DNA of 64,000 nt from Geoalkalibacter sp. (GCF_030605225.1 NZ_JAUWAV010000001.1:62001-126000), one strand, 5' to 3'. Positions 39,687-59,432 are shown, counted from the stretch's first letter. The notes: generated from the letters alone by a model not told the origin. Numbers and translations are program-made.

Positions 39687-39970
39687 AAATCCCCTCTGTG
39701 GTAAAAATACTATATAAAACAACTGGTTGATGAGAGAGAAACGCACAATGATTGGTGTGTGCCAACATAAACCGAATGGATTGAATTATGCAAAGAAAAA
39801 TTTAATTGCAAGGAAAAAATAAGTAAAAATTTAAATTTGTCCTTGCGGAACATCAGGTCAAGAGGCCGTGCTATATATAGTTGCATGCTGATCAGGCAGC
39901 GGGTTTCAGGATGGCGCCGTTGACGGGGTTTGGCGGCCCTGGGGACTGGGGTGGGAAAGGTCGGGACATC
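39687..39970. other. Divergent intergenic region between receptor and sufC
   Basis: 284 bases, AT-rich between 39775 and 39845. A TATATA at 39872-39877 could be a -10 for sufC but lacks a convincing -35. No clear operator was found. Confidence 0.4.
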
Positions 39971-40693: not shown

Positions 40694-41615
40694 TGCCCTG
40701 CTCAAGGCCTTTGGAAGCGCCGGCGGCGATCGGGCGGTGCTCGAGGATCCACGAACCGCTCATTTGTTGGCCGTCGGCCACCGGATTCTCAGCGCGCGCC
40801 GGGTCGAGGGGCTGGAGGTCGAGACTCGCGAAACGGATAACGGCATTGCGGCCAGGGTGCGGGTGGCGCCGGGAGTGCGTATCGAACATCCGGTGCATTT
40901 GTGCTTCGGGGTCGTGCATCGGCGAGGCGTACAGGAAATCGACATGGATGTGCGCCTGGAGCAAGGCTCCTCGGCCCAATTCCTCGCTCACTGCCTGTTT
41001 CCCCACGCGGAAGAGGTGCGGCATCTGATGAAGGGCAGGGTCCGCATCGACGAAGGGGCGCGGCTGCACTATGTGGAAACCCATGTGCATGGCCCCCATG
41101 GCGGCGTCGAGGTCATCCCCCGGGCTGAGGTTCATGTAGGCAAGAACGCGCGCTATCTCGGTGAGTTCACCCTGACCGGCGGGCGCGTCGGGAGCCTCGA
41201 TATCGATTACGTGGTTGCCTGCGAGGAGGGCGCGGTCACCGAGTTGATCGCCCGGGTGCATGGCCGCGGTTCCGACCGCATCAGGATTCGAGAGGCCATT
41301 TCCCTCAACGGTGAGAATGCTCGGGGCCTGATCAAGACCCGCATCGCCCTGCAGGACGAGGCGAGGGCGGAAGTAACCGGGGAGACGCAAGGCCATGCGG
41401 CGGGGGCACGGGGGCACGTGGACTGCATGGAACTGGTGCGGGATCGCGCCGTTGCCGGCGCCGTGCCCATCGTCGGCGTCACCCACCCCCTGGCCAAGGT
41501 AACCCACGAGGCCGCCATCGGCAGTGTCGACCAGCGCCAGTTGGAAACCCTCCTGGCGCATGGACTGTCCCCCGAGGAAGCGGTGGATGTCATCGTGCGC
41601 GGGGTGCTGCGTTGA
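40680..41615 (+). CDS. sufB: SufB/SufD-family Fe-S scaffold protein
   Basis: 311 residues, shorter than E. coli SufB (about 495) and similar to compact archaeal and delta-proteobacterial SufB-like proteins. The right-handed beta-helix core is seen with GARGHVDCMELV and ATHEAAIGSVD-type motifs (here KVTHEAAIGSVDQRQLETLL, end region with GLSPEEAVDVIVRG). Cys in GHVDC is a candidate for cluster or sulfur binding. With sufC it forms a minimal two-gene assembly system without SufS, SufE or SufD nearby. Confidence 0.87.
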   Translation: MSDADALLKAFGSAGGDRAVLEDPRTAHLLAVGHRILSARRVEGLEVETRETDNGIAARVRVAPGVRIEHPVHLCFGVVHRRGVQEIDMDVRLEQGSSAQFLAHCLFPHAEEVRHLMKGRVRIDEGARLHYVETHVHGPHGGVEVIPRAEVHVGKNARYLGEFTLTGGRVGSLDIDYVVACEEGAVTELIARVHGRGSDRIRIREAISLNGENARGLIKTRIALQDEARAEVTGETQGHAAGARGHVDCMELVRDRAVAGAVPIVGVTHPLAKVTHEAAIGSVDQRQLETLLAHGLSPEEAVDVIVRGVLR

Positions 41616-41721
41616 GTCTCCCTTTTTTGCGGTTTTCTGATCTTGCCGCACGCTCTCGCCCCATGGATTCCTAACGAATTTGCTCTTGATTTGTGGATGC
41701 CGAGGGCATTAGAGTGCCTTT

Positions 41722-44700
41722 ATGCCAAAGCGCCCCCATAACGCCCGCAAATCCCTCGCCGGCCCCTGGCTGGCGGCTGCGTTTTTTTTGGTCCTGCTTG
41801 CCGGCAGCCTCCTGTCCTGGTGGTCCATTCAGCGGTCCGACGAGGCCTTGCGTCAAGAACTCCTTCGCCAGGCCGAATGGTTGGCCCAAACCCTCAATGT
41901 CGATCAACTCAAAATCCTGACCGAGCCGCGCCCCGACTCTTTTTCTCCCACCCTTTACCGCCTGCGGCAACAGTTGGAGGCGGTCCTCTCCGCCGATTCC
42001 CGCCAGCGCCGCGTCATCCTTCTGGAGCGCGGGGCCGAAGGCGCGAGGCTGATTCTTGAGGTTGCTGGCCCGGAATCTCCCGGGTGGCCGGAAAGCAACG
42101 CTGTCGATCCACTCTTTACCGGCGAAACGTCGACGGTCCTTGGCCCATGGAGGGATGCGAAGGGTCGCTTCTTGCGCGCGGCGGTGCCGTTAGCACGGTT
42201 CGACGGCGAGCGTACCGTTTTTTTGTGTCTGGATGTGGACGCGGAGGATTGGCTCCATAAACGCTATGGCGCCGCTCTGCCGGCCCTTTGCGGGACTTTG
42301 GTCCTGAGCCTGATTCTGGGTGCTTCCGGCTGGATGCGGCGAGGCGAGGCGCGCGCGGCCGGCCGCTCCCGAAGCTCCTTGCGTTCTTTCGCGCCCTGGC
42401 TGGTTGCCGCCGTTGGAGTGGTGGTGACGCTGGTCGCGGCCTGGACGGCTCATGAACAGGAACGCCGCGACCGCCGAGAGGGCTTTGCGCAACTGGCTGC
42501 CGCGCGTACCAAATCCGTCGCGGAAATTCTGCACGACGTGCGGGATTACGAGTTGGAAAGTCTCGCCCGTTTTTACGAAGGCAGTGAACATGTCACCCAG
42601 GAAGAGTTTCTGCATTTTACCGGGTTCCTGGTAAAAAATCCGGTCGTTAAGGCCTGGGCTCTGATCCCGGCGGTCGCGGCGGAGCAGGTGAGGGTTTTCG
42701 AGGAGCAAGCGCGCGCAGAGGGGCTGGACGGATTTTCCGTCCGGCAGATGGATGGGGAGGGCCGGCCTGTGCCGGCCTCCGGGCGGGAGACGGTTTTTCC
42801 CGTCTTGTATGTCGCGCCTCTCGAAAGCAACCGCGACGTGCTGGGATACGATCTCGGTTCCGAGGCCCTGCGCCGCGTCGCCCTTGTGGAGGCGGCGCAT
42901 ACCGGCTTGGTCACGGCCAGCGATCCCATCGCCCTGGCGGATATTCCCGACGACCAGGGTCTGCTGATCTACCGGCCCGTTTTCATGGAAAACGAGCCGT
43001 CCCGTCTGCGCGGATTTGCCCTGGCGGTGCTGCACCTGGACAAGCTGCTTGTCGCGCGCGACGCGGACGACAGTCTTCATCTGGAACTTTCTCTCATCAA
43101 ACCTGGGCAGCCGTCCTGGCGGCTGCTGGCGTGGGACGGCGAGGAAACGCATGCCTTGAGCGGTTTCTCCTTGCATCGACCCGTCTTTGCCTACGGCAAG
43201 ACCTTTGTCGTATCGGCGCACGCCGGGCCCGATTTTTTCAAGGCCCGCCCGGCGGGTGCCGGGCTGTTTGCCCTGGCGACCGGAGCGGTGCTCACCGCCG
43301 CCCTGGTCGGCCTGACCTGGACCGTGCTTCGTCGCCGCGAGGAGCTGGAGCGCCTGGTCGCGGCGCGCACCCAGTCGCTGGGGAAAAGCGAAGCCTTCTC
43401 CCGCATGCTCCTGGCGACCATTCCGATTCCCGTGTTTTACAAGGACAAGGACGGCCGTTATCTGGGGTTCAACCAGGCATTCGAGGATTTTTTCGGCAAG
43501 AGCAGCGCCGATCTGATCGGCAAGAGCGTTTTTGATATCAGCCCGCCCGATCTGGCAAGGATTTATCACGCTCAGGATTGCGTGCTGTTTGAAAAACCCG
43601 GAGTCCAGGTCTATGAATCCCAGGTTCGCGACGCGCGCGATCAATTGCACGAGGTGGTTTTCCACAAGGCGTCGATGCTCGACGAGAAAGGGGCGGTCAT
43701 CGGCCTGATCGGCGCGATTCTCGACATCACGGAACGCAAGCAGTCCGAAAACGCCCTGCGGGAAAGCGAAGCACGTTTGCGGGCCATCAAGGATTCGGCG
43801 CAGGACGCCATCATCATGATGGACGGCCAGGGAGCGATTTCGTTCTGGAATCCCGCGGCGGAAAAGATTCTCGGCTATCGCGCGGAGGAAGCCCTGGGAC
43901 GGCCCCTGCACGAACTGCTTGCGCCACCGCGGCACCTTGACCTGTATCGCAAGGCATTTCCCGACTTTCAACGCGCGGGGCAGGGACGCGCCCTGGGGCG
44001 GACTCTCGATCTGACCGCGCGGCGCAAGGACCAGCAGGACATCGATATCGCGCTCTCCCTGTCGGCGGTGTTCCTCGGCGGTCAATGGCACGCGGTGGGC
44101 ATCCTGCGCGATGTGACGGAGCAGAAGCGTACCCAGGAGGAGATTCTTCAGACCAATCGCGAGTTGGAGGCCGCCATCGCCCGCGCCAACGAACTGGCGG
44201 CGCGGGCCGAGGCCGCCAATATCGCCAAGAGCGAATTTCTCGCCAACATGAGCCACGAGATCCGCACCCCCATGAACGGGGTGATCGGCACCATGGAATT
44301 GCTGCTGGAATCGCCGCTCAACGAGGAACAGCGTCAATACGTGCAGATGGCGCAAGCCAGCGGTCGGGCTCTGCTGTCGCTCATCGACGATATTCTCGAT
44401 GTGTCCAAGATCGAGGCCGGGAAGTTCGATCTGGAAATCAAGGAATTTGATCTCGAAGCCCTGCTGCGGGATTGCTCCGCCACCCTCGGCGTGCAGGCCC
44501 GAGAGAAGGGCTTGGCGTTGGTCTGCGAGCTCGATTCCGCGGTTCCCCGGGAACTGCGCGGCGATCCGGACCGGCTGCGGCAAATCCTGCTCAATCTGGC
44601 CGGAAATGCCGTCAAGTTCACTCCGGCGGGGCGTGTCGATATCCGGGTCGCTTTGACTCGGGACACGGAGGCGGAGGTTCTGCTGCGTTTCAGCGTATGC

Positions 44701-45402
44701 GATACGGGCATCGGCATCGCTCCCGATAAGATCGGTCTGCTGTTCAACAAATTCACGCAGGTCGATGCATCCATCACGCGCCGCTACGGGGGGACGGGCC
44801 TGGGTCTGGCCATCTCCAGGCAACTCGTCGAACTCATGGGCGGGCAGATCGGGGTGGAAAGTCAACCGGGAAGGGGATCGGAATTCTGGTTTACCGCGCG
44901 GTTCGGCAGAGCCTGCCGTCCAGCCGACACGTACGCCCCGCTGGAATCCGTTGCTTTCGGGGCGTACCGTGCCCCGTCTTCATCCCTGCCGGAGGTCAGG
45001 CCGCGCGTTCTCGTGGTGGAAGACAATCGCACCAACCAGCGCGTCGCCCTGGGTCTGCTGGAAAAGCTGGGCGTGACCGTGGAACTTGCGACCAACGGCA
45101 TCGAGGCCCTCAAGCTGCTGCAGACCCTGCCGTGCGATCTGGTGCTGATGGATGTGCAGATGCCCGAGATGGACGGCTTCGAGGCGACGCGCGCCATTCG
45201 CGATCCGCGCGCTCGCGTGCTCAATCCCCAGGTGCCCATCGTCGCCATGACCGCCCACGCCATGCAGGGCGACCGGGAACGCTGCCTTGCCGCCGGAATG
45301 AACGATTACCTCTCCAAACCCCTTTCGGCCAGAGCTCTGGATGCCGTCCTGAAGCGCTGGTTGCCTTGGACCGTCGAAAAACCCGCCGCGCACCTCATTT
45401 GA
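41722..45402 (+). CDS. Large hybrid histidine kinase: CHASE - PAS - PAS - HisKA - HATPase - REC
   Basis: 1226 residues. Membrane helices at about 15-35, 190-210 and 225-245; then a CHASE-type outside domain (about 255-440; [13 protein letters not shown] and VLGYDLGSE are typical), another helix near 515-540, PAS domains at about 565-680 and 690-815, H-box [11 protein letters not shown] (about 843), HATPase, and a receiver with Asp in [12 protein letters not shown] (about 1141). The extra N-terminal outside segment (35-190) is not recognised. ATG 41722 lacks a strong ribosome site. Monocistronic as far as can be seen. Confidence 0.9.
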
Positions 45403-45923
45403 CCCCGACTTGAAAGCAGATACCGCCCAAGAAGATCCACGTCCCTGTATTTTCATTAGAGTAAAAATAAAACAAGGTTTTTTTATTTTGACGACAATAA
45501 AGTTGGTCATTGAAGTCGTCGGGAGGTTGAAGTCCGGGTGGCTTCAATGCTGATGGCTTGATCCATGGAGTGGGGCAAAGGAAAAATAAAAATGCCCCTT
45601 TCTGCGACTTGACAAGGCGACTTTTCCTGATATTTGCTTAGCAAAGAGGTCAGCTATCGAAAAATTTATTTATATTTTTAAAAATTGTAATTTTTAAATG
45701 TCCATTTGTTCATCACCTGAACTCCTCTCTTCATTGTCTTTCTGATTTTCTGACTTCTTTCAAATTCAATGAAAAAAATTTTTTTTAATTTTGTGATTTG
45801 ATTTAAGTCAAAAATAAAAAACAAAAACCGTTCTATTTTTACACCGCGCGCATATGTATCGCGATCTGCCGACAAGCACAGTCGGGATTGAGCATTTGGC
45901 GTCGAGCGAAAAGGGGGTCGTCC
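45403..45923. other. AT-rich 521-base regulatory region upstream of the FrdA/Acl-like operon
   Basis: No gene is supported. A possible promoter is TTGACA (45609-45614) with TATTTG (45631-45636). TTTAAAAATT-GT-AATTTTTAAA (45677-45698) is a perfect inverted repeat, although in very AT-rich DNA. The stretch 45700-45830 is extremely A/T-rich and leads into the FNR-type site at 45798. The size and composition contrast sharply with the GC-rich neighbours. Confidence 0.5.
45798..45839 (+). promoter_or_regulatory. FNR-type class II promoter of the FrdA/Acl-like operon
   Basis: TTGATTTAAGTCAA (45798-45811) matches the FNR/DNR half-site pattern TTGAT-N4-GTCAA. TATTTT (45834-45839) begins 29.5 bases after its centre, exactly where a -10 falls when the activator is centred at -41.5. 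The same arrangement recurs before the nitrate reductase operon. Confidence 0.72.
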
Positions 45924-46574
45924 ATGATCACGATGGAATTGGAAGGACGCAAGATCAGGGTTCCGGCGGGGCTGACCATCATCGAGGCGTTGTGGGACAC
46001 GGGGCATGAGGTCAAGCGCGGCATCGGCTGTTTGTCGGGGCTGTGCGGCGCCTGCACCGTCGCTTATCTGGAGGAGGGGGCGCAGCGGGTCAAGTTCGGC
46101 CTGGGCTGCCAGACCCTGGTGGGCGAGGGGATGAACGTCATCATGCTGCCCTATTTTCCCTCGCGCCTGGCGCGCTACGACATGCAGAGCATGGACAACC
46201 CCCTGCGGGATCTGCCGAACCATTACCCCGAGCTTTTGGCCTGTAATGACTGCAAGGCCTGCAACATTTGCCCTGAATGGATTGATGTGGCGGCCTTTGT
46301 GCGCAATGCCCGCGAAGGCGAATACGCCCTGACGGCGGAAAAAGTCCTTGACTGCCACATGTGCGGCCTGTGCGCGTCGCGCTGCCCGAAAAGCATCGCG
46401 CCTCATTATGTCGGACTCTACACGCAGCGTTCCTGCGCCCGACAGCAAGCCTTGCCGCCCAATCTGGAAAACCGCCTTAAAGAAATGGAGTCGGGCCGAT
46501 ACGCCGAGGAGTTCGCGAAAATCCTCAGCTTGAGCGACGACGAACTCAAGGATTTCTGCCGCAAGGCCCTGTGA
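45924..46574 (+). CDS. 2Fe-2S / 4Fe-4S iron-sulfur protein (SdhB/FrdB-like electron-transfer subunit)
   Basis: 216 residues; ATG 45924 follows AAGGGGG. The N-terminal ferredoxin fold has GCLSGLCGAC with a further Cys in LGCQTL, a 2Fe-2S pattern. The C-terminal alpha-helical domain has CNDCKACNIC and CHMCGLCASRCP, enough for two further clusters. The build resembles SdhB/FrdB, but the first C-terminal motif (C-x2-C-x2-C-x2-C) and the short C-terminus differ, and no CCG domain is present. It should carry electrons between the flavoprotein encoded next and the membrane subunit at 53408. Cytoplasmic, no signal. Confidence 0.85.
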   Translation: MITMELEGRKIRVPAGLTIIEALWDTGHEVKRGIGCLSGLCGACTVAYLEEGAQRVKFGLGCQTLVGEGMNVIMLPYFPSRLARYDMQSMDNPLRDLPNHYPELLACNDCKACNICPEWIDVAAFVRNAREGEYALTAEKVLDCHMCGLCASRCPKSIAPHYVGLYTQRSCARQQALPPNLENRLKEMESGRYAEEFAKILSLSDDELKDFCRKAL

Positions 46575-46589
46575 GCCGGGAGGATGCCT

Positions 46590-48185
46590 ATGTACCCCGA
46601 ATATCTGTTTGGGCAACTCGATCTGGTCAACGCCACGCGGGAGCAGCGCATCGCGCAAACCCAGGACCTGTTTTCGGACGCGGAGAAAAGCGCCCTGCTG
46701 CGGAAATATCATCCCGATTACAAGGATGCCGCCTTTCGCAACCTGCGCGTCGGGCCGAACAAGGGCGACCGGACGACCCATGAGTTCGCCGACCTGCTCG
46801 AATCCTACGGCGATCTGGATTACGCCAAGATCAACCCCGAGCCGGAATTCGTCACCGACGTACTGGTGCTGGGCGGCGGCGGTGCCGGGGTGACGGCGGC
46901 GCTGTTCGCGGAACGACAGGGCGCGCGGGTGCTTCTGGCGACCAAGCTGCGGTTGGGCAACTCCAACACCATCATGGCCCTGGGCGGCATGCAGGCCTGC
47001 GTGGCGGAGGGTGATTCCCTGCTCAAGCATTTCGCCGACACCATGATTTCCGGCAACTTCGCGAGCCGCCGCGAACTGGTGCGAACCATGGTGGAAGATG
47101 GCCCCAACATCGTGAAATGGCTGCTGGAGATCGGGGTCAACTTCGACCGCGACACGCAGGGCAACCTGGCCGTCAAGAAAGCCGGGGGCCTGTCGGCGCC
47201 GCGGATTCTCTCCATCGGCGATCACACCGGGCTCAACATCATGAAGGTGCTCAAGGACGAAATGCGTAAAACCGGACGTATCGAGCTCTGCGAATTCACG
47301 CCCGCCGTGGAACTGACCACCGACGAACACGGCGAATGCAACGGCGCGGTGCTTTACGACCTGGGGCGCAGGCGCTATTTCGTGGTCAAGGCCAAGGCGG
47401 TCATTCTCGCCACCGGCGGCGCCGGGCGCCTGCACAACCAGGGTTTTCCCACCTCCAACAATTTCGGCGCGACGGGCGACGCGGTGGTGCTGGCCTATCG
47501 GGCCGGGGCGCGCATGGCGGATCTGGATTCCTTCCAGTTTCATCCGACGGGGGTGATGTATCCCGATCACATGGTCGGGGTGCTGGTGACCGAGGCCATT
47601 CGCGGCCTGGGCGCTCATCTGCTCAATGCTCGCGGCGAGCGCTTCGTCAATGAGCTGCAGACGCGCGACGTGGTGGCCGCCGCCGTCATCCGTGAGTGCG
47701 AACAGGGGCGCGGCGTCAGAACCAAGGCGGGGCGGGTGGGGGTGTGGCTCGACATCCCGGTGCTCGAGGAGATCGTGGAAAAGGGCCTGATCAAGAAGCG
47801 CTTTCCCTCCCTCTACAAGAAATTCATGCGCGTCAAGATCGATGTTACCCGGCGCCCGCTGTTGATCTATCCGACCCTGCACTACCAGAACGGCGGGATT
47901 CTCATCGACGAGCACGCCGAGTCCACGGTGAAGAATCTCTTCGTCGCCGGCGAGGCGGCGGGCGGCATCCACGGTCGCAACCGCTCCATGGGCAATTCGC
48001 TCCTCGACATTTTCGTCTTCGGCCGCCGCGCCGGGCTGGCGGCCGCGACCCGTGTATCACGCGATCCGGGCCGGATCACCCTCGATCATGTGCACAGCTA
48101 TTACAGGAATTTGAAATCCTTGAGGATTTCCAGCGTGGCCAAATCGCCCACGTTGTTTCCCGAGTTCATCGTCGACAAGCTTTAA
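46590..48185 (+). CDS. Fumarate reductase/succinate dehydrogenase-type flavoprotein with non-covalent FAD predicted
   Basis: 531 residues. FAD-binding VLVLGGGGAGVTAAL is near residue 90. Dicarboxylate-site residues of FrdA are kept: His318 in FHPTG, Arg359 in QTRD, His431 in LHYQNGG, Arg465 in HGRNRSMGNSL. The flavin-linking His of FrdA/SdhA is replaced: the segment reads GNSNTIMALGG, with Asn126. FAD is therefore probably bound non-covalently, as in thiol:fumarate reductase and L-aspartate oxidase. An N-terminal extension of about 85 residues precedes the FAD domain. ATG 46590 is 6 bases after GGGAGG. Substrate unproven; a dicarboxylate is likely. Confidence 0.87.
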   Translation: MYPEYLFGQLDLVNATREQRIAQTQDLFSDAEKSALLRKYHPDYKDAAFRNLRVGPNKGDRTTHEFADLLESYGDLDYAKINPEPEFVTDVLVLGGGGAGVTAALFAERQGARVLLATKLRLGNSNTIMALGGMQACVAEGDSLLKHFADTMISGNFASRRELVRTMVEDGPNIVKWLLEIGVNFDRDTQGNLAVKKAGGLSAPRILSIGDHTGLNIMKVLKDEMRKTGRIELCEFTPAVELTTDEHGECNGAVLYDLGRRRYFVVKAKAVILATGGAGRLHNQGFPTSNNFGATGDAVVLAYRAGARMADLDSFQFHPTGVMYPDHMVGVLVTEAIRGLGAHLLNARGERFVNELQTRDVVAAAVIRECEQGRGVRTKAGRVGVWLDIPVLEEIVEKGLIKKRFPSLYKKFMRVKIDVTRRPLLIYPTLHYQNGGILIDEHAESTVKNLFVAGEAAGGIHGRNRSMGNSLLDIFVFGRRAGLAAATRVSRDPGRITLDHVHSYYRNLKSLRISSVAKSPTLFPEFIVDKL

Positions 48186-48210
48186 TGCTGTCTTTTCCAG
48201 GGAGGCACCC

Positions 48211-49485
48211 ATGCAGATCACCGGCATGAAATACGGACACCAACTACTGAAACTGGTTGATTTTCCCGTCGCGGAAACCCTGCGCGCCAGCGCCTCGCTG
48301 GACGAGGTGAGCGGGCTGATCGAGCGTCACGGCGGCAAATGCGTGGTCAAGCCGGTGTTTCTCGGCGGCATCGGCAAGAAGGGCAAGGCGGGGCTGGTGC
48401 GCATCGTGAGCAATCCCTACGAGGCCATGGTCGCCAAGCGTGATCTTTATTTCGCCGTCCACGAACAGGGCAATCGCCAGGTGCAGGCCAACGGCGTGAC
48501 CTTCGAGGGCTTCATCCCCTCGGACATCGAGGTCTACGTCAACATCAGCGCCTCGACCCTGTACCGCAGCCCGGTGCTGACCCTGACCACCGAGGGGGGC
48601 GTGGATGTCGAGGAGATCGCCGAATCGCGCAAGCGGGTGATTTCCTTCAATCCGGCGACGGGGCTCAAGGCGTTTCACGTGCACGACGCCCTGCGCGAAC
48701 TCGACTGCCCGGCGCATTACATCAGCCCCCTGGTGCAGCATCTGCCGAAACTCTGGCAGCTCTACGACAATTACGGCATGACCGTGCTGGAACTCAATCC
48801 CATCCGCATGGCGCGAAAAAACGGCCGTTATCTGCCCGTGGCCTGCGACATCAAGGCCGCCTTCGACGTGGACAATCCCGCTTGGCGCCGCCTGGGCTTT
48901 CCCGAGGAGATTTTTTCAACGGAGCTGAGTCGCTTCGAGGCCGAGATCAACGTGCTGCGCACCCATCAGGGGCAGAGCGACGTGGTCGAGATCAACGCGC
49001 AGGGCAGCATTCTGCCCTTCATGTTCGGCGGCGGGGCCAACAGCGTGACCACGGAGATTCTCGGCGATCGCGCCATCCTCTCCTCGGATTTCGGCGGCAA
49101 TCCCCCCTACGAGAAAATGAAAGCCATCGCCGACATCACCATGCGGCACTGGCTGCGCCAGGCGCGGGTGCTGCTGATCATCGGGGGCCGGGCCAACAAC
49201 ACCGACATTTTCACCACCTTCAAGGGCATTTTCGATGCCTTGCGCGAGAACATCCATCTCAATCCGCGCATTCAGGTGGTGGTCGGTCGCGGCGGACCCC
49301 GTCTGGTCGAGGGGCTGACCTATGCGCGCGACATCCTCGAGCGGTTGCAGATTCCCTATGCCTTCTTCGGCTTCGACAGCAGCATGGTCAGCGTCATTCA
49401 TTATGCCCTGGAACTGGATCGCTGGCTGGAACGAGCGGCCAACAAGGCCGCCGCGCAAGCCCCGTCCGAATCCGCTTTCGTTTAA
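48211..49485 (+). CDS. ATP-citrate lyase small subunit-like protein (ATP-grasp plus CoA-ligase domain)
   Basis: 424 residues. The N-terminal ATP-grasp part has KCVVKPVFLGGIGKKGKAGLV and the metal-site LELNPIRM. The C-terminal part aligns by eye with the ATP-citrate lyase beta subunit rather than SucC: FGGGANSVTTEIL, VLLIIGGRANNTDIFTTFKGI and VVVGRGGPRLVEGL. ATP-citrate lyase forms citryl-CoA from citrate, ATP and CoA. Clear ribosome site GGGAGG. The partner large subunit begins 14 bases after the stop. Confidence 0.85.
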   Translation: MQITGMKYGHQLLKLVDFPVAETLRASASLDEVSGLIERHGGKCVVKPVFLGGIGKKGKAGLVRIVSNPYEAMVAKRDLYFAVHEQGNRQVQANGVTFEGFIPSDIEVYVNISASTLYRSPVLTLTTEGGVDVEEIAESRKRVISFNPATGLKAFHVHDALRELDCPAHYISPLVQHLPKLWQLYDNYGMTVLELNPIRMARKNGRYLPVACDIKAAFDVDNPAWRRLGFPEEIFSTELSRFEAEINVLRTHQGQSDVVEINAQGSILPFMFGGGANSVTTEILGDRAILSSDFGGNPPYEKMKAIADITMRHWLRQARVLLIIGGRANNTDIFTTFKGIFDALRENIHLNPRIQVVVGRGGPRLVEGLTYARDILERLQIPYAFFGFDSSMVSVIHYALELDRWLERAANKAAAQAPSESAFV

Positions 49486-49499
49486 AGGAGACCCCGTCC

Positions 49500-52205
49500 A
49501 TGCCAGCGACTCCGCCATTTCCCTATTTCGTCGGCGTGCAGAGCCTGCACGAACTTGCCAACCGCCGCTCGCGGGTGTGCGTGATGAACATTCTCGGCAC
49601 CGAGAGCGTGCAGGTCACGCCAACCTCCCACGCCTTCAGCGGCGGCAACGTCGTCGCCGGGGTGCAGTACGGCAGCACCGGCGAGGCCTTGGAGACGCCC
49701 CTGGGGCCGATTCCCGTTTACGGCAGCGTTTCCGAGGTGCTGAAAAGCGGGCATGATTTCGATACCGGCGTGATCTATCTGCCGCCGGCCGCGGTCAGCC
49801 ACGCGGTGTCGGAGCTCTGCGTGCACAACCGCAACCTCAAGCGCATCTATATTGTCACCGAGAAGGTCAGCGCGCGCGATTCGCGCCTGATCCGCTACGT
49901 GGCGCAGAATCGCCGCGTCGACGTGCTCGGTGCCAACTCCCTGGGCATCGGCAATTCCTGGGATCAGGTGCGCATCGGCGGCGCTCTGGGAGGCGACAAT
50001 CCCTCGGCCTGCCTGAAGCGCGGCAGCATCGCCATCTACAGCAACTCGGGCAATTTCTGCACGACCCTGGCCGAATATCTCAAGACCCGCGGCTTCGGCA
50101 CCTCGACCATCTTCAGCAGCGGCAAGGACCACTACATTCACTTCGCATTGGCCGAGTTTCTCTACTGCGCCGAGAACGATCCGCGCACCAAGGCGGTGGT
50201 CATCTACATCGAGCCGGGCGGCTATTACGAGAAGCAGGCCCTGGACTGGATCGAGCAAGGCCGTCTGCCCTTCAGCAAACCCCTCATCGCCTGCGTGACG
50301 GGACGCTGGAAAAGCCGTCTGGCGCGACCCTGCGGTCATGCAGGCGCCATGGCCGGCGGCAGCGACGACGCCTTCGCCAAGGAAGTGTGGTTCGACACGT
50401 ATTTCGGTGTGCCGGCCTTTTCCGCGACCCATCCCTCTGTGGGACGACGTGGAGTGCGCGTGACCAGCATCCAGGATCTGCCCCAGGCGGTGCAGGCGGT
50501 GATGGAACTGCTCGGCGAGGCGCCGGACTTCGCGCCCCAGGGCGATCTGTCCCTCAAGCCCTGGCTGGTCAATCATCAGGGGATCGCCCTGCCCGAAGAG
50601 TTGCGTCTCAAGCCGGTGCCGCCCCTGGCGCCCTATGACCGTCAGCTGGCCGAAGCCAATCGCCTGGTCGGCGCCTGCCTGGTGCGCGAAAGCATGCGCA
50701 ACGCCTCCAGCGCCACCCGCGTGGTGGAAGCGACTCAGCAGACCGAACTTCATGGCAAGCCGATTCTCGATCTCATCGAGACGCCTTTCGCCGCCACCTG
50801 TCTGTTCGCCCTGCTGCGCCAGGAGCTGCCCGAATCGGCCGTCCCTCTGGCCAATCTGGTGCTCGATGGCTTGACGCGGCGAGCCGAGCAGAGAGTCTTG
50901 CCCGTGGCCGAACAGGGCCGCGCCCAGGGATGCGCACCCAATGCCTATCTGGCCGCCGAGGTGCTGCTGGCGGGCAACAACTCCTGGTTTCAGGATCTGA
51001 CGACCATCGCCGAGCGTCTTATCGACGCCTTCTTCCATGCCGCCGATGCGGCCCTCGCGCCCGATGAAGCCTTGCTGCGCGAAGTTCTCGAATCCATGCC
51101 CGACCTGCCCAAGGGGTCGGTCACGGACATCGAGGAACGCTGGGCCGCCGAGTGCGCCGCTTTGTTGAAAAGCACCGCCGGCGAAACCTTGTTGACCCGT
51201 TTTGCCGAGGCCTACGTCGCTCGGGAGAGCCATGCGGGGGTGCGGACCAATCCCCTGAGTCTCTTCGTCGTCGCCGTGCTCCTCGGCTGGGCCTGGCCGG
51301 CCTTGAAGAATCGCCGCATTCCCCGCCAGACGGCGGTGGAGCTGAGTATCCATCTGGCCCTGCTGGGCCTGGTCGCCCGGGCGGGGGCCGCGACGCCGCC
51401 CTGGCCGCCAGGCGCGGACGCCGGTGACTCGCGGGATTTTGTCGCAACGTTGTTTCGCGGCCTGTTCGGCCGCGAACCCGGGAGCAACGATCTGTTCGCC
51501 CTCAATGCGCTGCTCAATCTCACCGTCAGCAACGGCCCCGGCACCCTCAGCGCCATGGGGGCCAAGGAAAGCGTGAGCGCCGGCAATCCTGTCGCCACCG
51601 CCTACGCCGGCTTCATGACCAACACCGGCCTTGCCCACGGCGGTAACGGCTTCAAGGCCGTCGCCTATCTGCTGGAGGTGTTTGCCGGTCAGGATCCCTA
51701 CCAACTGCCCGAGCCGCAGCGTGAGCAACTGTTGCGCCGGCTCGCCGAGGAGCGTGCCGCCCAATTCCTGGCGGCCAAGCGCGGTGCCCGCGACACCAAG
51801 GATCTGGAACCCATCCCCTGTATCAATCATCCGGTGTTTCGCGGCCAGCCGATCAACGTCGACCCGCGCGAAGAGCGCATTCGCTGCGTGTTGCGCGATC
51901 GCGGCATCCGTAATCCGTTTCTCGAGTTCTATCATCACCTGGTCGAGGAGCTGTTCCGCATCGGCGCCACCCGCAATGTGTTCTGCGTGAACGTCGATGC
52001 GGTGCTCGCCACCCTGTCCCTGGAGCTGTTCTGGCCGCAGTGGCAGAGCGGCGCGGTGACGCCCGAAGCCATGCAGGACGCGGTGTTCCGTCTGTTTCTC
52101 TACGGGCGCATGCCCGGCATCGCCGCGGAAATCGCCGACCATCGCAGTCGCGGCAGCGACATGGACTGCCGCACGCCCAATTCTGAGTTGCGCTATCTGA
52201 ATTGA
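49500..52205 (+). CDS. ATP-citrate lyase large subunit-like protein with citrate synthase-type lyase domain
   Basis: 901 residues, about 290 longer than green-sulfur-bacterial AclA as I recall it. Residues 1-340 are the CoA-binding/ligase part with the phospho-histidine in CGHAGAMAGG (His280). The C-terminal half is citrate-synthase-like and keeps the catalytic triad: His713 in AHGGNG, His777 in NHPVFRG followed by DPRE, and Asp833 in VNVDAV. Citrate synthesis or cleavage chemistry is therefore plausible. Residues about 345-600 are unusually divergent. ATG 49500 follows AAAGGAG; the longer upstream frame overlaps the small-subunit gene and is not coding. Confidence 0.85.
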   Translation: MPATPPFPYFVGVQSLHELANRRSRVCVMNILGTESVQVTPTSHAFSGGNVVAGVQYGSTGEALETPLGPIPVYGSVSEVLKSGHDFDTGVIYLPPAAVSHAVSELCVHNRNLKRIYIVTEKVSARDSRLIRYVAQNRRVDVLGANSLGIGNSWDQVRIGGALGGDNPSACLKRGSIAIYSNSGNFCTTLAEYLKTRGFGTSTIFSSGKDHYIHFALAEFLYCAENDPRTKAVVIYIEPGGYYEKQALDWIEQGRLPFSKPLIACVTGRWKSRLARPCGHAGAMAGGSDDAFAKEVWFDTYFGVPAFSATHPSVGRRGVRVTSIQDLPQAVQAVMELLGEAPDFAPQGDLSLKPWLVNHQGIALPEELRLKPVPPLAPYDRQLAEANRLVGACLVRESMRNASSATRVVEATQQTELHGKPILDLIETPFAATCLFALLRQELPESAVPLANLVLDGLTRRAEQRVLPVAEQGRAQGCAPNAYLAAEVLLAGNNSWFQDLTTIAERLIDAFFHAADAALAPDEALLREVLESMPDLPKGSVTDIEERWAAECAALLKSTAGETLLTRFAEAYVARESHAGVRTNPLSLFVVAVLLGWAWPALKNRRIPRQTAVELSIHLALLGLVARAGAATPPWPPGADAGDSRDFVATLFRGLFGREPGSNDLFALNALLNLTVSNGPGTLSAMGAKESVSAGNPVATAYAGFMTNTGLAHGGNGFKAVAYLLEVFAGQDPYQLPEPQREQLLRRLAEERAAQFLAAKRGARDTKDLEPIPCINHPVFRGQPINVDPREERIRCVLRDRGIRNPFLEFYHHLVEELFRIGATRNVFCVNVDAVLATLSLELFWPQWQSGAVTPEAMQDAVFRLFLYGRMPGIAAEIADHRSRGSDMDCRTPNSELRYLN

Positions 52206-52232
52206 CCCCGGGGAAGGGCAGGGAGGACGACC

Positions 52233-53411
52233 ATGAAACGGATCCTGTTGATCGGCTGCGGCGCGGAAATCGGCTCCCTGTTGCTGGGCATGCTGCGGCC
52301 CGAGCGTGACGGCCTCGTCATCGGCGCCGTGCTGACCAACTCGCCGGCGACGGACCCGAGTCATCCCCGGCTTTCGCCCCTGGATGGACTGTGCGCGCGT
52401 ATTGTCCTGGCCCAGCCGCAGCTGCTCGACGAGGTGAGCGTCGAGGGCGGCGTGCTGCGGGTGCGCGGCCGCGAGGTTCCCGTTTTCTTCGGCGACATGC
52501 GCACCTATCCCCTGGAGAGCCTGCCCGGGCCGTTTGATGTCTGCCTCGTCGCCACCTCCAAGACGCATATCGGCGATCGTCCGTTGATGGAGCGTTTTCT
52601 GGGCGTCGCCCGCTATGTGCTCGGCGTCGCCGAAGCCACGGCGCTGCCCGGCTTTTATCCGCCGCTTATCGGGGCGCCGGAGCGGTTCCTGCCTGTTCGT
52701 TCGCAGCCCGCGGGCGGCGAGCGGATTTTTGCCCTGGGTTCCTGCCAGACCAACGGCTGGCTGGCGCAGGTGCGCGGTCTGCTCGATCTGGCCGAGGACG
52801 TCGGCATGACTCGGTTTGAGCTGCGCGGCCTGGAAGTCGACATCGTTCATCCGGATACGCCGACGGGGCGTCTCGGCACGGCCTCGATCCGGGCGCGCGA
52901 ACAAGATCCGCGCGACAACCTGCGTCCCGGCTTTTCGCAGGTGGAAACCTCCATGGCGCGGCTGTTCCCCGAGCGACATGCCCTGAGCACAATTTCCCTG
53001 CGCACCCTGACCCTGCCGCCCGGGTATCAGATCTGCCGTTTCTTTTTTCGCTATGCCCGCGCCCATGGGCGGCGTCTCGACGCCGAGGAGATCAGGGCAG
53101 GCCTTGGCCGCACCGTCCAGCGTCTGCCCTGGCTGCTGCGCCTGGCCGAGCGCCCCTACGGCAGTCGCGGTTTCGAGCAATGCGAGGCGGCCGCCGTGAT
53201 TCTGCCGCAAGAGGCGCTGCTGCGCTTCGCCGATGATCCCTTCGCCCTGCATGCCGAAGGCGTGCAGCCCTTGAGCGAACTGATCCTGCAGGCCTATGTG
53301 CACAACACGCGCGGCTATTGCCGCAGTGTCATCGAGGCCATGCGTCATCTGGTCGGCAATCCCGCGCCCCGGGTATATGCCGCCCTGACGTCCGGGGAGG
53401 GAGGGCCATGA
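52233..53411 (+). CDS. GAPDH-fold oxidoreductase-like protein
   Basis: 392 residues. The N-terminus is a Rossmann-like strand-turn (MKRILLIGCGAEIGSLLLGML). A catalytic-cysteine motif ALGSCQTNGWLAQV (Cys171) resembles SCTTNCLAP of glyceraldehyde-3-phosphate dehydrogenase. GFSQVETSMARLFPE and TLTLPPGYQICRFFF correspond to the GAPDH segments before and within the phosphate-binding sheet. The catalytic His is not obvious. It could oxidise or reduce an aldehyde/acyl-phosphate, but substrate and cofactor are unknown. Its stop overlaps the next start as ATGA. Confidence 0.7.
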   Translation: MKRILLIGCGAEIGSLLLGMLRPERDGLVIGAVLTNSPATDPSHPRLSPLDGLCARIVLAQPQLLDEVSVEGGVLRVRGREVPVFFGDMRTYPLESLPGPFDVCLVATSKTHIGDRPLMERFLGVARYVLGVAEATALPGFYPPLIGAPERFLPVRSQPAGGERIFALGSCQTNGWLAQVRGLLDLAEDVGMTRFELRGLEVDIVHPDTPTGRLGTASIRAREQDPRDNLRPGFSQVETSMARLFPERHALSTISLRTLTLPPGYQICRFFFRYARAHGRRLDAEEIRAGLGRTVQRLPWLLRLAERPYGSRGFEQCEAAAVILPQEALLRFADDPFALHAEGVQPLSELILQAYVHNTRGYCRSVIEAMRHLVGNPAPRVYAALTSGEGGP

Positions 53412-55150
53412 GGAAAAATCTCGGGGTCGAAATCCGCACCTTCGCGGGGGGGCTGTTCGAGGTGATGTTCGTGGGCGGCCGGGCTTTTTATGCCTGGATG
53501 ATCTTTCTCACCCTGTTTGTCGTGGCGGGGGCGGCCACCTACGTCACCCAACTGACCCAGGGCATGGCCGTCACCCACATGCGCGATCAGGTGTCCTGGG
53601 GCTTCTACATTTCCAACTTCACCTTCCTCGTCGGAGTGGCCGCGGCGGCGGTGCTGCTGGTGATTCCGGCCTACCTCTATCATTTCAAGGCCATCAAGAA
53701 GATCGTCGCCTTCGGCGAATTGCTCGCCGTCACCGCCGTCATCATGGCCATTTTGTTCGTGTTCGTCGACATCGGCCGGCCCGACCGCATCTGGCACATG
53801 CTGCCGGGGTTGGGCATCCTCAATTTTCCGTCCTCGATTCTCGCCTGGGACCTGATGGTGCTCAACGGCTATCTGCTGCTCAACCTCGGCATCACCACCT
53901 ACATCGGCACCTGCACCTACCTGGGCCGCGAACCCGACAAGCGCATCGTCATCCCCCTGATCCTACTCTCCATTCCCTGGGCGGTTGGGATTCACACCGT
54001 GACCGCCTATCTGTACAACGGCCTGCCGGCTCGACCCTTCTGGAATGCCTCGATCCTCGCGCCGCGTTTTCTCGCCTCGGCCTTTTGCGCCGGACCCGCC
54101 CTGATGATCGTTATCTTTCAGATTCTGCGGCGGGTCATGGATTTTCAGGTGCGCGACCGGGCCATTTTCAAGCTCGCCGAGATCATCGCCTACGCCATGG
54201 CGGTCAATCTGTTTCTCATGGGCGCCGAGATCTTCAAGGAATATTATTCGCACACCCAGCATCTGGCGCCCATGGAGTATCTGCTCCAAGGCCTGAACGG
54301 CAAGACCCGCCTGGTGCCCTGGATCTGGGTCGCCATCCTGTTCAACCTGATCGGTTTTTTTCTATTCCTCCTGCCGAGAACCCGCCGGAATTTCATCACC
54401 CTCAACATCGGCTGCGTGTTGATTTTCGTCGGCATCTGGATCGAGAAGGGCATGGGCCTGATCGTGCCGGGCTTCATTCCTGATTCCCTGGGTGAAATCT
54501 ACGAATACATGCCGTCCTCGCGGGAAGTTCTCATCGGCCTGGGCATCTGGGCGACGGGCGGGTTGATCTATACCCTGGCGGTGCGGACGGTGATCGCCCT
54601 GGATACCGGTCGCCTCCGACACCCCGGCGCGCCGCCCCTGGTGCCGGAATACGACGAGGAGGGTCCCCTCGCCGGGGATCTGATGGCGGCGAATCCCATC
54701 ACGGTGACGGCGGACACAAGGATTACCCAGGCGCGGGCCATCATGAGTCACAGCGGCTGCGGGGGGATTCCCGTGGTGAACGAGCAGAACCGAGTAGTGG
54801 GCCTGCTGTCGGAATCCGACCTGATTTTCCACGAAATTCACCAGGAGCCGCAGTTGGTCGAAAAATTCCGGCATCTGCTGCTGCCCAAATTCCGCCGAAA
54901 AAATTTTTCGGGAGAAACGGTGGCGCAGATCATGGGCGCTCCGGCGATCACCGCGCGCGAGGATACCCCGGCACGCGAACTCTCGCAGATGCTTCTGGAG
55001 AACAACATCAAGCGCATCGTCATCGTCGATGCGCAGGATCAGCCCATTGGGATCGTCTCGCGCGGCGACATCGTCCGAACCTTTGAACCGGCGTTTGGCG
55101 ACACGCGAAAACCGGGGGCGGAAAATGATTCTCATTTGGAAAAAAATTAA
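53408..55150 (+). CDS. NrfD/PsrC-family quinone-interacting membrane subunit fused to a CBS-domain pair
   Basis: 580 residues. About ten hydrophobic helices occupy residues 25-400, with NrfD features such as DIGRPDRIWHML, LAWDLMVLNGYLLLNLG and GAEIFKEYYSHTQH. NrfD proteins exchange electrons with menaquinone for a membrane-bound complex. The C-terminus has two CBS domains, from residue 423 (GDLMAANPITVTADT) and from about 504 (VAQIMGAPAITARED), which usually bind adenine nucleotides. ATG 53408 follows GGGGAGG and overlaps the preceding stop. Last gene of the operon; it is the only membrane anchor encoded there. Confidence 0.88.
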   Translation: MRKNLGVEIRTFAGGLFEVMFVGGRAFYAWMIFLTLFVVAGAATYVTQLTQGMAVTHMRDQVSWGFYISNFTFLVGVAAAAVLLVIPAYLYHFKAIKKIVAFGELLAVTAVIMAILFVFVDIGRPDRIWHMLPGLGILNFPSSILAWDLMVLNGYLLLNLGITTYIGTCTYLGREPDKRIVIPLILLSIPWAVGIHTVTAYLYNGLPARPFWNASILAPRFLASAFCAGPALMIVIFQILRRVMDFQVRDRAIFKLAEIIAYAMAVNLFLMGAEIFKEYYSHTQHLAPMEYLLQGLNGKTRLVPWIWVAILFNLIGFFLFLLPRTRRNFITLNIGCVLIFVGIWIEKGMGLIVPGFIPDSLGEIYEYMPSSREVLIGLGIWATGGLIYTLAVRTVIALDTGRLRHPGAPPLVPEYDEEGPLAGDLMAANPITVTADTRITQARAIMSHSGCGGIPVVNEQNRVVGLLSESDLIFHEIHQEPQLVEKFRHLLLPKFRRKNFSGETVAQIMGAPAITAREDTPARELSQMLLENNIKRIVIVDAQDQPIGIVSRGDIVRTFEPAFGDTRKPGAENDSHLEKN

Positions 55151-55175: not shown

Positions 55176-55217
55176 TTGATTTAGGTCAAAATGTGTAATC
55201 AAAAACTGTTCTAAAGT
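55176..55217 (+). promoter_or_regulatory. FNR-type class II promoter of the nitrate reductase operon
   Basis: TTGATTTAGGTCAA (55176-55189) is centred 29.5 bases before TAAAGT (55212-55217), the same geometry as at 45798. An upstream TTGTGATTT and a downstream CTGTTCTA are also shared between the two promoters. Confidence 0.75.
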
Positions 55218-55272: not shown

Positions 55273-55812
55273 ATGAGAAACAAGGGACGAGGGTGTCGGG
55301 TAGTGCTGCTGGGCGTGTTGCTGCTTGTCGGGGCCTGGACGGCCGGCGCGCAATCCCTCGCGGGTGATGCGCGGCGCGGCGAGGCGCTTTATGTCGGAAC
55401 CCAATCTTTTTCCCAGGGAGGTGCGCCCTGCCTGGCCTGCCATGGGATCAGCGGCGCTGGGCTCGGCCTGGCGGCCGGGGCCAATTTTGGACCCGACCTG
55501 ACGAGCATGCACGCCAACTTCGGCGGCGACGGGGTGCTCTCCATTCTGGAAAGCCTGACGGATTTCGCCAGCATGGAACCCATTTACGCCAACCGACCCC
55601 TGACGGCGGACGAGCAGGCGGATGTCGCCGCGTTTCTTGCCGATGTTTCTGGACAAACACCGTTTGAAACAGGCGCGCGGCTCTTGGGTCATGTGGCGGT
55701 TTGGACGGGAGCGTTGCTGGTGGTTCTGGTCCTGGCCGGGTGGGGACGATTCAAAGGCGCGAGACGCCCCCTGGTGGAGAGTGCGCGCATGAGAAAGGGA
55801 GGTCTGCAATGA
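55273..55812 (+). CDS. Membrane-anchored monoheme cytochrome c of the nar operon (NarC-like)
   Basis: 179 residues from ATG 55273 after GGGAGGTGA. An N-terminal signal segment (about 1-27), a class I cytochrome c domain with one CLACH heme motif near residue 58 and a possible Met ligand in [12 protein letters not shown], then a C-terminal membrane helix (about 145-165). It places a heme in the periplasm next to the nitrate reductase. Similar cytochromes lead nar operons in Thermus and Geobacter. It may take part in quinol oxidation or in maturation of the complex. Overlaps narG as ATGA. Confidence 0.85.
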
Positions 55813-58800
55813 GTTGGATAAAGGACATTTTCGATCCCAAAGCGCGGGCCTGGGAAGAATTCTACCGCAACCGCAACCAGTGCGACAAAGTGGTGCGCAG
55901 TACCCACGGCGTCAACTGCACCGGCAGCTGCTCGTGGAACGTGCACGTCAAGGACGGCATCGTTGCCTGGGAACTGCAGGCCACGGATTACCCGCCCCTG
56001 GAAGAGGGCATTCCCCCCTACGAGCCGCGCGGCTGCCAGCGAGGCGCGGCCTTTTCCTGGTATCTCTACAGTCCGCTGCGCATCAAGTACCCCTATGTGC
56101 GCGGCACCCTCATGGATCTGTGGCGGCAGGCCAAGACCGTCCATGCCGATCCGGTGGCCGCCTGGGCGTCCATCGTCGACAATCCGCAGAGCCGCAAGAG
56201 CTACCAGAAGGCCCGCGGCAAGGGCGGTTTCCGGCGCAGCAGCTGGGAGGAGGTCGAGGAGATTATCTGCGCCTCGATCATTCACACCATTCTAAAATAC
56301 GGCCCCGACCGCCTGGTTGGATTCTCGCCGATTCCCGCCATGTCCATGCTCAGTTTCGCCGGCGGCTCGCGTTTCATGCAGCTGCTGGGGGGCGTCAACC
56401 TGAGCTTCTACGACTGGTACTGCGATCTGCCCAACGCCTCGCCGGAAATCTGGGGCGAGCAGACCGACGTCGCGGAAAGCGCCGACTGGTACAACAGCAA
56501 GTACATCGCGGTGATGGGCTCAAACGTCAACATGACCCGCACCCCCGATGCCCATTTCCTCGTCGAGGCGCGCCACGCCGGCGCCAAGGTGACGGTGCTC
56601 TCGCCGGATTTCAGCATGACCTCCAAGCACGCCGACTGGTGGATTCCGGCCCATGCCGGGCAGGACGGCGCCTTCTGGATGGCGGTCAATCACGTCATTC
56701 TCAAGGAATTTCATCACGGCGCCCAGACGCCCTATTTCCTCGACTATCTCCAGCGCTACACGGACAGTCCCTTTCTCATCGTCCTCGATAAAAAAGGGGA
56801 GGGCTTCCGTCCCGGGCGCATGCTCACGGCGGCCGTTTTCGAGGACTACCAGGCCGAGGAAAACGCCGGATTCAAGTACCTGATCTGGGACGAGAACGAC
56901 CAGGCGCCGCGCATGCCCCTGGGCACCCTGGGTTTTCGCTGGCAGGAGAAAAAAGGTGAGTGGAACCTGCAATTGAAGGACGGCAAGACCGGGCAGGAGC
57001 TTTCACCGGCACTGACGCTGCTCAAAGGCGATGCCGAGGTGCTGGAGGTCGGTTTCGATGATTTCGCCTCGGGTCGGGCGCAAAAACGCGGCGTGCCGGT
57101 GCGTTACGTGGAGACCACCGAGGGGCGCGTGCCCGTCGCGACCATCTATGATCTGCTCATGGCGCAGTTCGGCGTGGGCCGCGGTCTGCCCGGCGATTAT
57201 CCGCGCGACTACGACGCGGAAGAGAGCCCTTACACGCCGGCCTGGCAGGAAAAGTTCACCGGCATCGATCGCGCCAACGTCATTCAATTCGCCCGTGAAT
57301 GGGCTTCCACCGCCGAGAAGACCCAAGGCAAGTGCTCCATCATCATCGGCGCAGGCATCAACCACTGGTACCACGCCAACCTCATCTACCGCGCCGGGAT
57401 CGTCGCGCTGATGCTGTGCGGCTGCGTGGGACGCAACGGCGGCGGCCTCAACCACTACGTCGGTCAGGAAAAACTCGCTCCCGTGGCGCCCTGGGCGACC
57501 ATCGCCGGGGCCCTGGACTGGACGCGTCCGCCGCGTTTCCAGAACACCCCGTCCTTTCACTACGTGCACAGCGACCAGTGGCGCTACGAGCGCACCGCCG
57601 ACGAAGTGCGCATCAACCCGGTGGCGGAGAAAACGCCCCTGAGCTCGGATCACACCATCGATCATCAGATTCGTGCCGTGCGCAGCGGCTGGCTGCCGTT
57701 CTATCCCCAGTTCGACCGCAGCCCGACGCGGGTGGTCAAGGAGGCCCAAGCCGCCGGCGCCGCCGACAACCAGGGCATCATCAACTGGACGGTCAAGCAG
57801 TTGGCGGACAAAAAGATGAAATTCGCCGTCGAGGATCCCGACGCGCCGGAAAACTGGCCGCGATTCTGGATCATCTGGCGCGGCAATGCTCTCATGTCGA
57901 GCGCCAAGGGCCACGAGTACTTCCTCAAGCATTATCTCGGCACCCACCACAACAGCGTGGCGCCGGAGACCGCCGAGGAATCGGTGAAAGAGGTCAAGTG
58001 GCACAAGCAGGCGCCCGAGGGCAAGCTCGACCTGGTGGTCGATATCAACTTCCGCATGGATACCTCGGCGCTCTATTCGGATATCGTGCTGCCCACGGCG
58101 ACCTGGTACGAAAAGGATGATCTCAACAGCACCGACATGCACTCTTTCATCCATCCCCTGCAGGCGGCGGTGCCGCCCTGTTGGGAGGCCAAGAGCGATT
58201 ACGACATCTTCAAGGGCCTGGCCAAAGGCATCAGCCGGCTGGCCCAGACGCACCTGCCCCAGCCGGTGCGCGACATCGTGGCGGTGCCCTTGCAGCACGA
58301 CACGCCCGCCGAGATGGCCCAGCCGACCATCAAGGACTGGAGCAAGGGCGAGTGCGAACCCATTCCCGGCAAGACCATGCCGGGTCTCGCGGTGGTGGAG
58401 CGCGACTACGTCAATCTCTACAACCGCTTCATCTCCTTCGGACCCGCCGCGCGGCAGAACGGCATCGGCGCCCACGGACTCTCCTGGGGCATCGAGGATA
58501 TGTATGACGACCTCAAGCGCACCAATCCGACGGTCCGGTGGAACGGTCAGGACTATCCCTCCCTCTCCGATGCCCGCGAAGCCGCCAACATCATTCTCGC
58601 CCTGGCGCCGGAAACCAACGGCGAGGCCGCTTATCGCGCCTTCAAGGCCGAGGAGAAGAAGGTCGGCCTGCCCCTGACCGATCTGGCGGAAAGCAACCGC
58701 GACGTGCGCACCACCTTCGCCGACATCGCCGCCAAGCCCCGGCGTCTGCTGACCAGCCCCTGTTGGAGCGGTCTGACCAACAACGGTCGCGCCTACACCT

Positions 58801-59432
58801 CCTACAGCTTCAACGTCGAGCGTCTGGTGCCCTGGCGCACCCTGAGCGGCCGCCAGCATTTCTATCTCGACCACGAGGGCTACATCGCCGCCGGCGAACA
58901 TCTGCCGACCTACAAGCCCAAGCCCGATCCCAGCAGCCTGCAGGACATCGTGGTGAGCAAGCCGGGCGAAAAGAGCATCCTGCTCAATTATCTCACCCCC
59001 CACGGCAAATGGGGCATCCACAGCACCTACGGCGACAACCACCGCATGCTGACTCTTTCGCGCGGCTGTCATCCCTTCTGGATCAATGACCGCGACGCCG
59101 AGGAGATCGGCGTCATCGACAACGACTGGGTCGAGGTGTTCAACGACCACGGCGTGGTGGTCACCCGGGCCGTGGTCAGCGCCCGCCTGCCGCGCGGCAT
59201 CTGCCTCATTTACCACTCTCCGGAGCGCACCATCGGCGTGCCCAAGTCGCCGTTGCGCGGCAATCGCCGCGCCGGCGGCCACAACAGCCTCAACCGCGTG
59301 CGCCTCAAGCCCAATCTGATGCTCGGCGGCTACGGCCAGTTCACCTACGGCTGGAACTACTGGGGACCGACCGGCGCCAACCGCGACACCTTCATCCTGG
59401 TGCGCAAACTCCAGGGTGAACCGCAGTATTGA
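55809..59432 (+). CDS. narG: Respiratory nitrate reductase alpha subunit
   Basis: 1207 residues, molybdopterin enzyme reducing nitrate to nitrite. The FS0 cluster ligands are [11 protein letters not shown] with a distant Cys in EPRGCQRG, including the NarG-type His. The Mo-coordinating Asp is in YDWYCDLP. There is no twin-arginine signal, so the enzyme faces the cytoplasm as in NarGHI of E. coli. Near the C-terminus [13 protein letters not shown] is typical. Length is slightly below E. coli NarG (1247). Start overlaps the cytochrome stop. Confidence 0.97.

Follow-up and report, generated by a model that had tools for sequence, protein, structure and literature searches.

The reductive tricarboxylic acid (TCA) gene clusters of tubeworm symbionts and Thioflavicoccus mobilis carry type II aclAB, encoding ATP-citrate lyase (ACL), and tfrAB among flx-hdr and korABCD genes (PMC6315080), and in the Riftia symbiont the transcripts of this cluster drop under nitrate limitation, those of tfrAB excepted (PMC11636981). 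We analyzed a 64,000-nucleotide stretch of DNA from Geoalkalibacter sp. (GCF_030605225.1, NZ_JAUWAV010000001.1:62001-126000; hereafter the window) that carries six genes, g1 to g6, which we judge will probably turn out to encode a reductive TCA module used during nitrate respiration. The operon is a rearranged piece of the known reverse-TCA gene set, with an HcpR/FNR-type promoter common to it and nar; the enzymes are known, and both the arrangement and its tie to nitrate are new. A type II ACL and a TfrAB-like fumarate reductase stand together in it, as in the tubeworm symbiont and T. mobilis cluster, to which we likened it by gene arrangement and primer motifs, and the Riftia symbiont cluster is reported to be expressed in dependence on nitrate, tfrAB excepted. 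Unlike the tubeworm symbiont and T. mobilis cluster, the window operon has no adjoining kor, idh, mdh, flx, or hdr genes, and it is a single six-gene operon with an NrfD-CBS membrane protein, a GAPDH-like protein, and nar as its neighbor.

All six genes lie on one strand (45924-55150), with gaps of 9, 25, 14, and 27 bp followed by a 4-bp overlap (the ATGA at 53408, shared by g5 and g6). A six-gene operon at this place had been proposed from the sequence of the window, and the shared strand, the tight spacing, the domain matches, and the recurrence of the order in two other genomes bear this out; the spacing of 14 to 27 bases or overlap given in this original prediction holds for the overlap and the other gaps, and fails for the first gap. 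A search for the gene order in relatives, named beforehand as the test of the proposal, found it conserved. A metagenome-assembled genome (MAG) of the Desulfuromonadales (L007) has g1 to g6 in order at 72-90% identity, followed by cytochrome c and narG, except that a gene for phosphoenolpyruvate (PEP) carboxylase separates g5 from g6 (L007:14243-17038). A Geoalkalibacter MAG (L003) has g3 to g6, cytochrome c, and narG at 87-95% identity, up to the contig end. Because the order recurs in these two genomes, the arrangement is not a product of chance. Literature searches on ACL in Geobacter and the Desulfuromonadales turned up no description of the g1-g6 operon.

The genes g3 and g4 are predicted to encode the known type II ATP-citrate lyase, on the evidence of primer motifs, domains, and relatives of known structure. 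Primers published for this type of ACL in tubeworm symbionts encode VAKEEWF and NGFEAIA (PMC3522073), and both peptides fall at motifs that the g4 family conserves, AKExWF and GGNG(F/Y)EA(I/V), which read FAKEVWFD and GGNGFKAV in the window; we therefore filed the pair as type II ACL. The citrate-binding domain of g3 scores 66 bits against a cut-off of 26.8, g4 has the phospho-His loop GHAGA at residues 279-283, and the subunit architecture is that expected of type II ACL, with ATP-grasp and citrate-binding domains in the small subunit and a SucD-like ligase, a phospho-His loop, and a citrate-synthase domain in the large one. The best relatives of known structure are citryl-CoA synthetase and ATP-citrate lyases. 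In the citrate-synthase domain, the first catalytic His (His900 of ACLY by our own count) is Asn in all aligned family members, with the other His and the Asp kept. The complete His/His/Asp set of type I ACL, seen in human ACLY and Hydrogenobacter CCL, is thus not present in g4, and the Asn is a trait of the sampled type II ACL family.

In the ACL tree, a Desulfuromonadales clade (the window, L003, L007, and Geobacter) is set against other Desulfobacterota and plasmid-borne alpha- and betaproteobacterial copies. Elsewhere in the Desulfobacterota the pair adjoins a monomeric IDH (six loci). The Geobacter MAG operons (L004-L006, the first with PEP carboxylase near the pair) resemble the window in that genes for a CBS-domain protein and a fumarate reductase accompany the ACL pair; they differ in that the reductase is a different FrdA-FrdB-CCG set, with the His for covalent FAD and a CCG subunit, and that the CBS protein is stand-alone, with no NrfD or GAPDH-like gene. 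Plasmid-borne pairs without TfrBA occur in Microvirga and Paraburkholderia (L008:10001-14025, L009:10001-14009, L010:10001-14027), with matches also in Sinorhizobium, Caballeronia, and others, and the Microvirga VF16 pair lies near a tripartite tricarboxylate transporter and polyhydroxybutyrate (PHB) genes. A divergent, shorter ACL-like fusion of 690 amino acids (L044:8056-10128, in genome G131) sits on a very long branch.

The other two core enzymes, g1 and g2, belong to a known TfrB/TfrA-like family. The domain of g2 is FAD_binding_2, and its best NCBIfam match is TfrA, at 361 bits, under the equivalog cut-off of 718. Because g1 ends soon after the 4Fe-4S motifs and the C-terminal CCG (HdrB-like) domains of methanogen TfrB are absent, we call the pair TfrBA-like and not a member of thiol:fumarate reductase (TfrAB). 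With its family, g2 has SNT where covalent-FAD SdhA and FrdA have SHT or SHS, and the dicarboxylate-site residues are intact. Covalent FAD is required for efficient succinate oxidation; the change of the FAD-linking His to Asn therefore makes fumarate reduction the likelier direction, and the FAD site together with the gene context favors a reductive role.

The gene context is as follows. Of the 395 genomes sampled from the phylum, 101 have homologs of g2 at E below 1e-80. A g1-like gene adjoins the g2-like gene in the loci examined, save that other genes come between them in L114 and L115. In L106-L109 and L113-L116 the two are accompanied by some of the hdr, flx, sucCD, and kor genes, and in L107 by all of these, in agreement with the placing of tfrAB in the tubeworm symbiont cluster (PMC6315080). 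Relatives of g2 at about 50% identity lie in hdrB-hdrA-flx-tfrB-tfrA-sucCD-kor-sdhAB clusters of the Desulfobacterota (L106-L109, L114-L116), in which tfrB precedes tfrA as in the window. Unlike the window, these genomes encode the ACL elsewhere, often beside IDH, and by gene context Hdr-Flx is the electron source. The TfrA family is present in 12 of 13 sampled genomes with type II ACL versus 69 of 247 overall (hypergeometric P ~1e-6, relatedness ignored). Geobacter H7geo has a g1-g2 pair (L105:2550-17000) downstream of narGHJ and two MFS genes, about 13 kb from its ACL genes and flanked also by a NIT-domain sensor and a sigma-54 activator.

Since g3/g4 are assigned to type II ACL and g1/g2 to the TfrB/TfrA-like family, the operon does not amount to a new pathway, and a wholly new six-part pathway was rejected for the core. 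The original prediction held that no described system combines these parts; this overstates the case for the core, because type II ACL and tfrAB have been published together in one reductive TCA cluster (PMC6315080). Of the two roles it had offered, a variant reverse-TCA entry is the better supported, by the two enzyme families and the reductive TCA context of the g1/g2 relatives.

The rest of the host genome (3.7 Mb; the contigs that match it best come from Geoalkalibacter and further Desulfuromonadales MAGs) supplies further parts of the cycle. KorAB and a monomeric IDH are encoded on contig C24, SucCD on C8, and citrate synthase on C9, and POR-type enzymes are present. The KOR and IDH are 58-70% identical to those of genomes with reductive TCA clusters, and ACL, fumarate reductase, and KOR, the gene set that marks the reductive TCA cycle, occur in this one genome. 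Acetyl-CoA synthase was looked for in the host genome and not found.

The same HcpR/FNR-type box, followed by N18-GTTCTA, stands before the g1 operon and before the adjacent cytochrome c-nar operon, and this pairing is new. The palindrome TTGAYnnnnRTCAA occurs three times in the window versus 0.18 expected; the third copy (12205-12218) lies in a GC-rich stretch, probably within a gene and by chance. L007 has exactly two boxes, at the same two promoters, and L003 has one, before cytochrome c-nar. Of these five promoters in the window, L007, and L003, four have GTTCTA 18 bp after the box, and the fifth has ATTTTA. Genome-wide there are 16 box sites, one of them before an hcp gene, versus 2 for a reversed control. 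Published work gives the HcpR motif of Geobacter and Desulfuromonas as wyTTGACnnnnGTCAArw and counts nar among the genes of the regulon (PMC1274295); here too a TTGACnnnnGTCAA-like palindrome is common to the upstream regions of nar and hcp, as in an HcpR regulon of that type. An HcpR/FNR-type regulator may therefore act at both operons; the box and its spacing are observed, and we infer the identity of the regulator. Another member of the FNR family is possible, because one half-site is TTGAT.

Table 1. Features of the six-gene operon and its surroundings in the window
Feature	Position	Strand	Description
g1	45924-46574	+	TfrB-like Fe-S protein, 216 amino acids; 2Fe-2S and two 4Fe-4S motifs, without CCG domain
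g2	46584-48185	+	TfrA-like fumarate reductase flavoprotein, 533 amino acids; dicarboxylate-site His/Arg retained, FAD-linking His replaced by Asn
g3	48211-49485	+	small subunit of the predicted type II ATP-citrate lyase, with ATP-grasp and citrate-binding domains
g4	49500-52205	+	predicted type II ATP-citrate lyase large subunit, 901 amino acids; SucD-like ligase and citrate-synthase domain
g5	52233-53411	+	GAPDH-superfamily protein, 392 amino acids; Cys171, His206, Arg257 conserved
g6	53408-55150	+	DsrP/NrfD-like protein, 580 amino acids, ~10 predicted transmembrane segments, fused to two C-terminal CBS domains
HcpR/FNR-type palindrome TTGATTTAAGTCAA	45798-45811	.	upstream of g1; -10-like GTTCTA at 45830-45835, 18 bp downstream
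HcpR/FNR-type palindrome TTGATTTAGGTCAA	55176-55189	.	before cytochrome c-nar operon; GTTCTA at 55208
cytochrome c	55273-55812	+	first gene of nar operon (context, outside the module)
narG	55809-59432	+	respiratory nitrate reductase alpha subunit (context); narH next at 59533, narJ also identified

Upstream of the operon (39881-45402) lie genes for a SufC-like ATPase, a SufD/SufB-like protein, and a large CHASE-PAS hybrid histidine kinase.

In the module as we picture it, TfrBA would reduce fumarate to succinate, KOR and IDH encoded elsewhere in the genome would lead from succinyl-CoA towards citrate, and ACL would spend ATP to split citrate into acetyl-CoA and oxaloacetate. The electrons would come from g6, probably drawn from menaquinol. 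In this g6 would replace the Hdr-Flx found in other Tfr clusters, and its CBS pair may gate the supply by adenylate charge. The substrate of the GAPDH-like g5 would probably be a phosphorylated or acyl intermediate lying downstream of PEP, which is the weakest step.

The fusion of a DsrP/NrfD protein with two CBS domains is new, and it stands in the place of the Hdr-Flx of other clusters. The NrfD part of g6 scores 425.8 bits against the DsrP equivalog cut-off of 350, and it shares 59-63% identity with the DsrP proteins of Dsr-type clusters, one of them in the host genome itself (C40). The resemblance to DsrP of DsrMKJOP ends there; g6 carries the two CBS domains and has no DsrM, DsrK, DsrJ, or DsrO neighbors. 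Positive loops place both ends of g6 in the cytoplasm, and the CBS pair is therefore predicted to be cytoplasmic. Descent of the CBS domains from a common source with the CBS proteins of L004-L006 was rejected (16-19% identity, E 0.02-0.05), and the two are treated as independent.

Transfer of electrons from the NrfD protein to TfrBA, taken by itself, is a tentative step, and rather doubtful is the fuller proposal of a new-build quinol:fumarate reductase in which soluble TfrBA docks on an adenylate-gated NrfD/DsrP protein through its CBS domains and, functionally coupled to type II ACL, drives the reductive TCA cycle in nitrate respiration. Several points weigh against the module as pictured. 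NrfD partners are usually periplasmic Fe-S subunits, and g1 and g2 look cytoplasmic. They might instead use an Hdr-Flx in trans. The residues of g4 alone do not prove the lyase step, because the first catalytic His is Asn in every member, and full reductive TCA flux is not required, because a canonical citrate synthase is also present.

It may also be, and this has real though lesser plausibility, that g6 and perhaps g5 work apart from g1-g4, with g6 serving another complex such as the adjacent nar system or DsrMKJO. The close identity of its NrfD part to DsrP, including that of its own genome, speaks for this, as does its position next to cytochrome c-nar in all three genomes (the window, L003, and L007). 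Set against it are the overlap with g5 and the presence of a CBS protein also beside ACL and Frd in the Geobacter MAGs, though the two proteins are only distantly alike. The cytochrome c-nar operon, moreover, starts from its own conserved promoter after g6, and assignment of g6 to the nar system is disfavored on that ground.

The presence in the module of a rare GAPDH-superfamily protein, g5, is likewise new. Domain searches gave no Pfam or NCBIfam match, a sequence search of the PDB with g5 gave no meaningful match, and none was found in viral contigs. It has the motif SCQTN, where the catalytic motif of phosphorylating GAPDH is SCTTN, together with a His, an Arg, and YxxNxxGY. All 48 Foldseek matches to its model at E<0.001 are GAPDH, but because the AlphaFold models are of low confidence (pLDDT 46 for g5 and 55 for g4), the fold matches for both are taken only as support; hhalign of g5 with a GAPDH of the same genome is a weak match (E 0.0036, probability 9%). 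The genome has three ordinary GAPDH matches, which argues that g5 is not simply the glycolytic enzyme. The g5 protein was found in 1 of 395 genomes in the phylum sample and in 3 of 136 in the order, its own genome included. A homolog on a Pantoea alhagi plasmid (L131:7908-9113, 36%) keeps Cys171, His206, and Arg257, and is flanked by genes for a Sua5/YrdC protein and a PEP-utilizers_C (PEP-binding) protein.

A second alternative, which we regard as unlikely, is an assimilatory or redox-balancing branch and not autotrophy, in which citrate cleavage would yield biosynthetic acetyl-CoA and the fumarate reductase would dispose of electrons in mixotrophic growth on nitrate. It draws on the plasmid ACL pairs without TfrBA in Microvirga, Sinorhizobium, and Paraburkholderia, on the transporter and PHB genes near the VF16 pair, and on the citrate synthase of the host genome. 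The window operon, however, lacks citrate transporter and polymer genes, and the resemblance of the host KOR and IDH to those of reductive TCA clusters also tells against it. Least of all do we credit an oxidative module, in line with the respiratory carbon oxidation of the original prediction. Here ACL would run in reverse, making citrate, CoA, and ATP from acetyl-CoA, oxaloacetate, ADP, and Pi, the flavoprotein would oxidize succinate, and electrons would pass through NrfD to quinone in TCA acetate oxidation with nitrate, in the style of Desulfobacter. Relatives of the Geoalkalibacter host oxidize acetate, NrfD could hand electrons to quinone, and the operon adjoins nar, but g2 lacks the His for covalent FAD, its relatives sit with KOR and Hdr-Flx, and a citrate synthase and a further SdhA-like protein are encoded elsewhere in the genome.

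The reductive module that we prefer places the reverse TCA cycle with type II ACL and Tfr among relatives of Geobacter and Geoalkalibacter, whereas it has been known chiefly from tubeworm symbionts not in culture and from a single cultured purple sulfur bacterium. It offers a testable proposal that fumarate reduction may connect to the quinone pool with no need of Hdr-Flx, and it predicts that one regulator would switch on the reverse-TCA module together with nitrate respiration.

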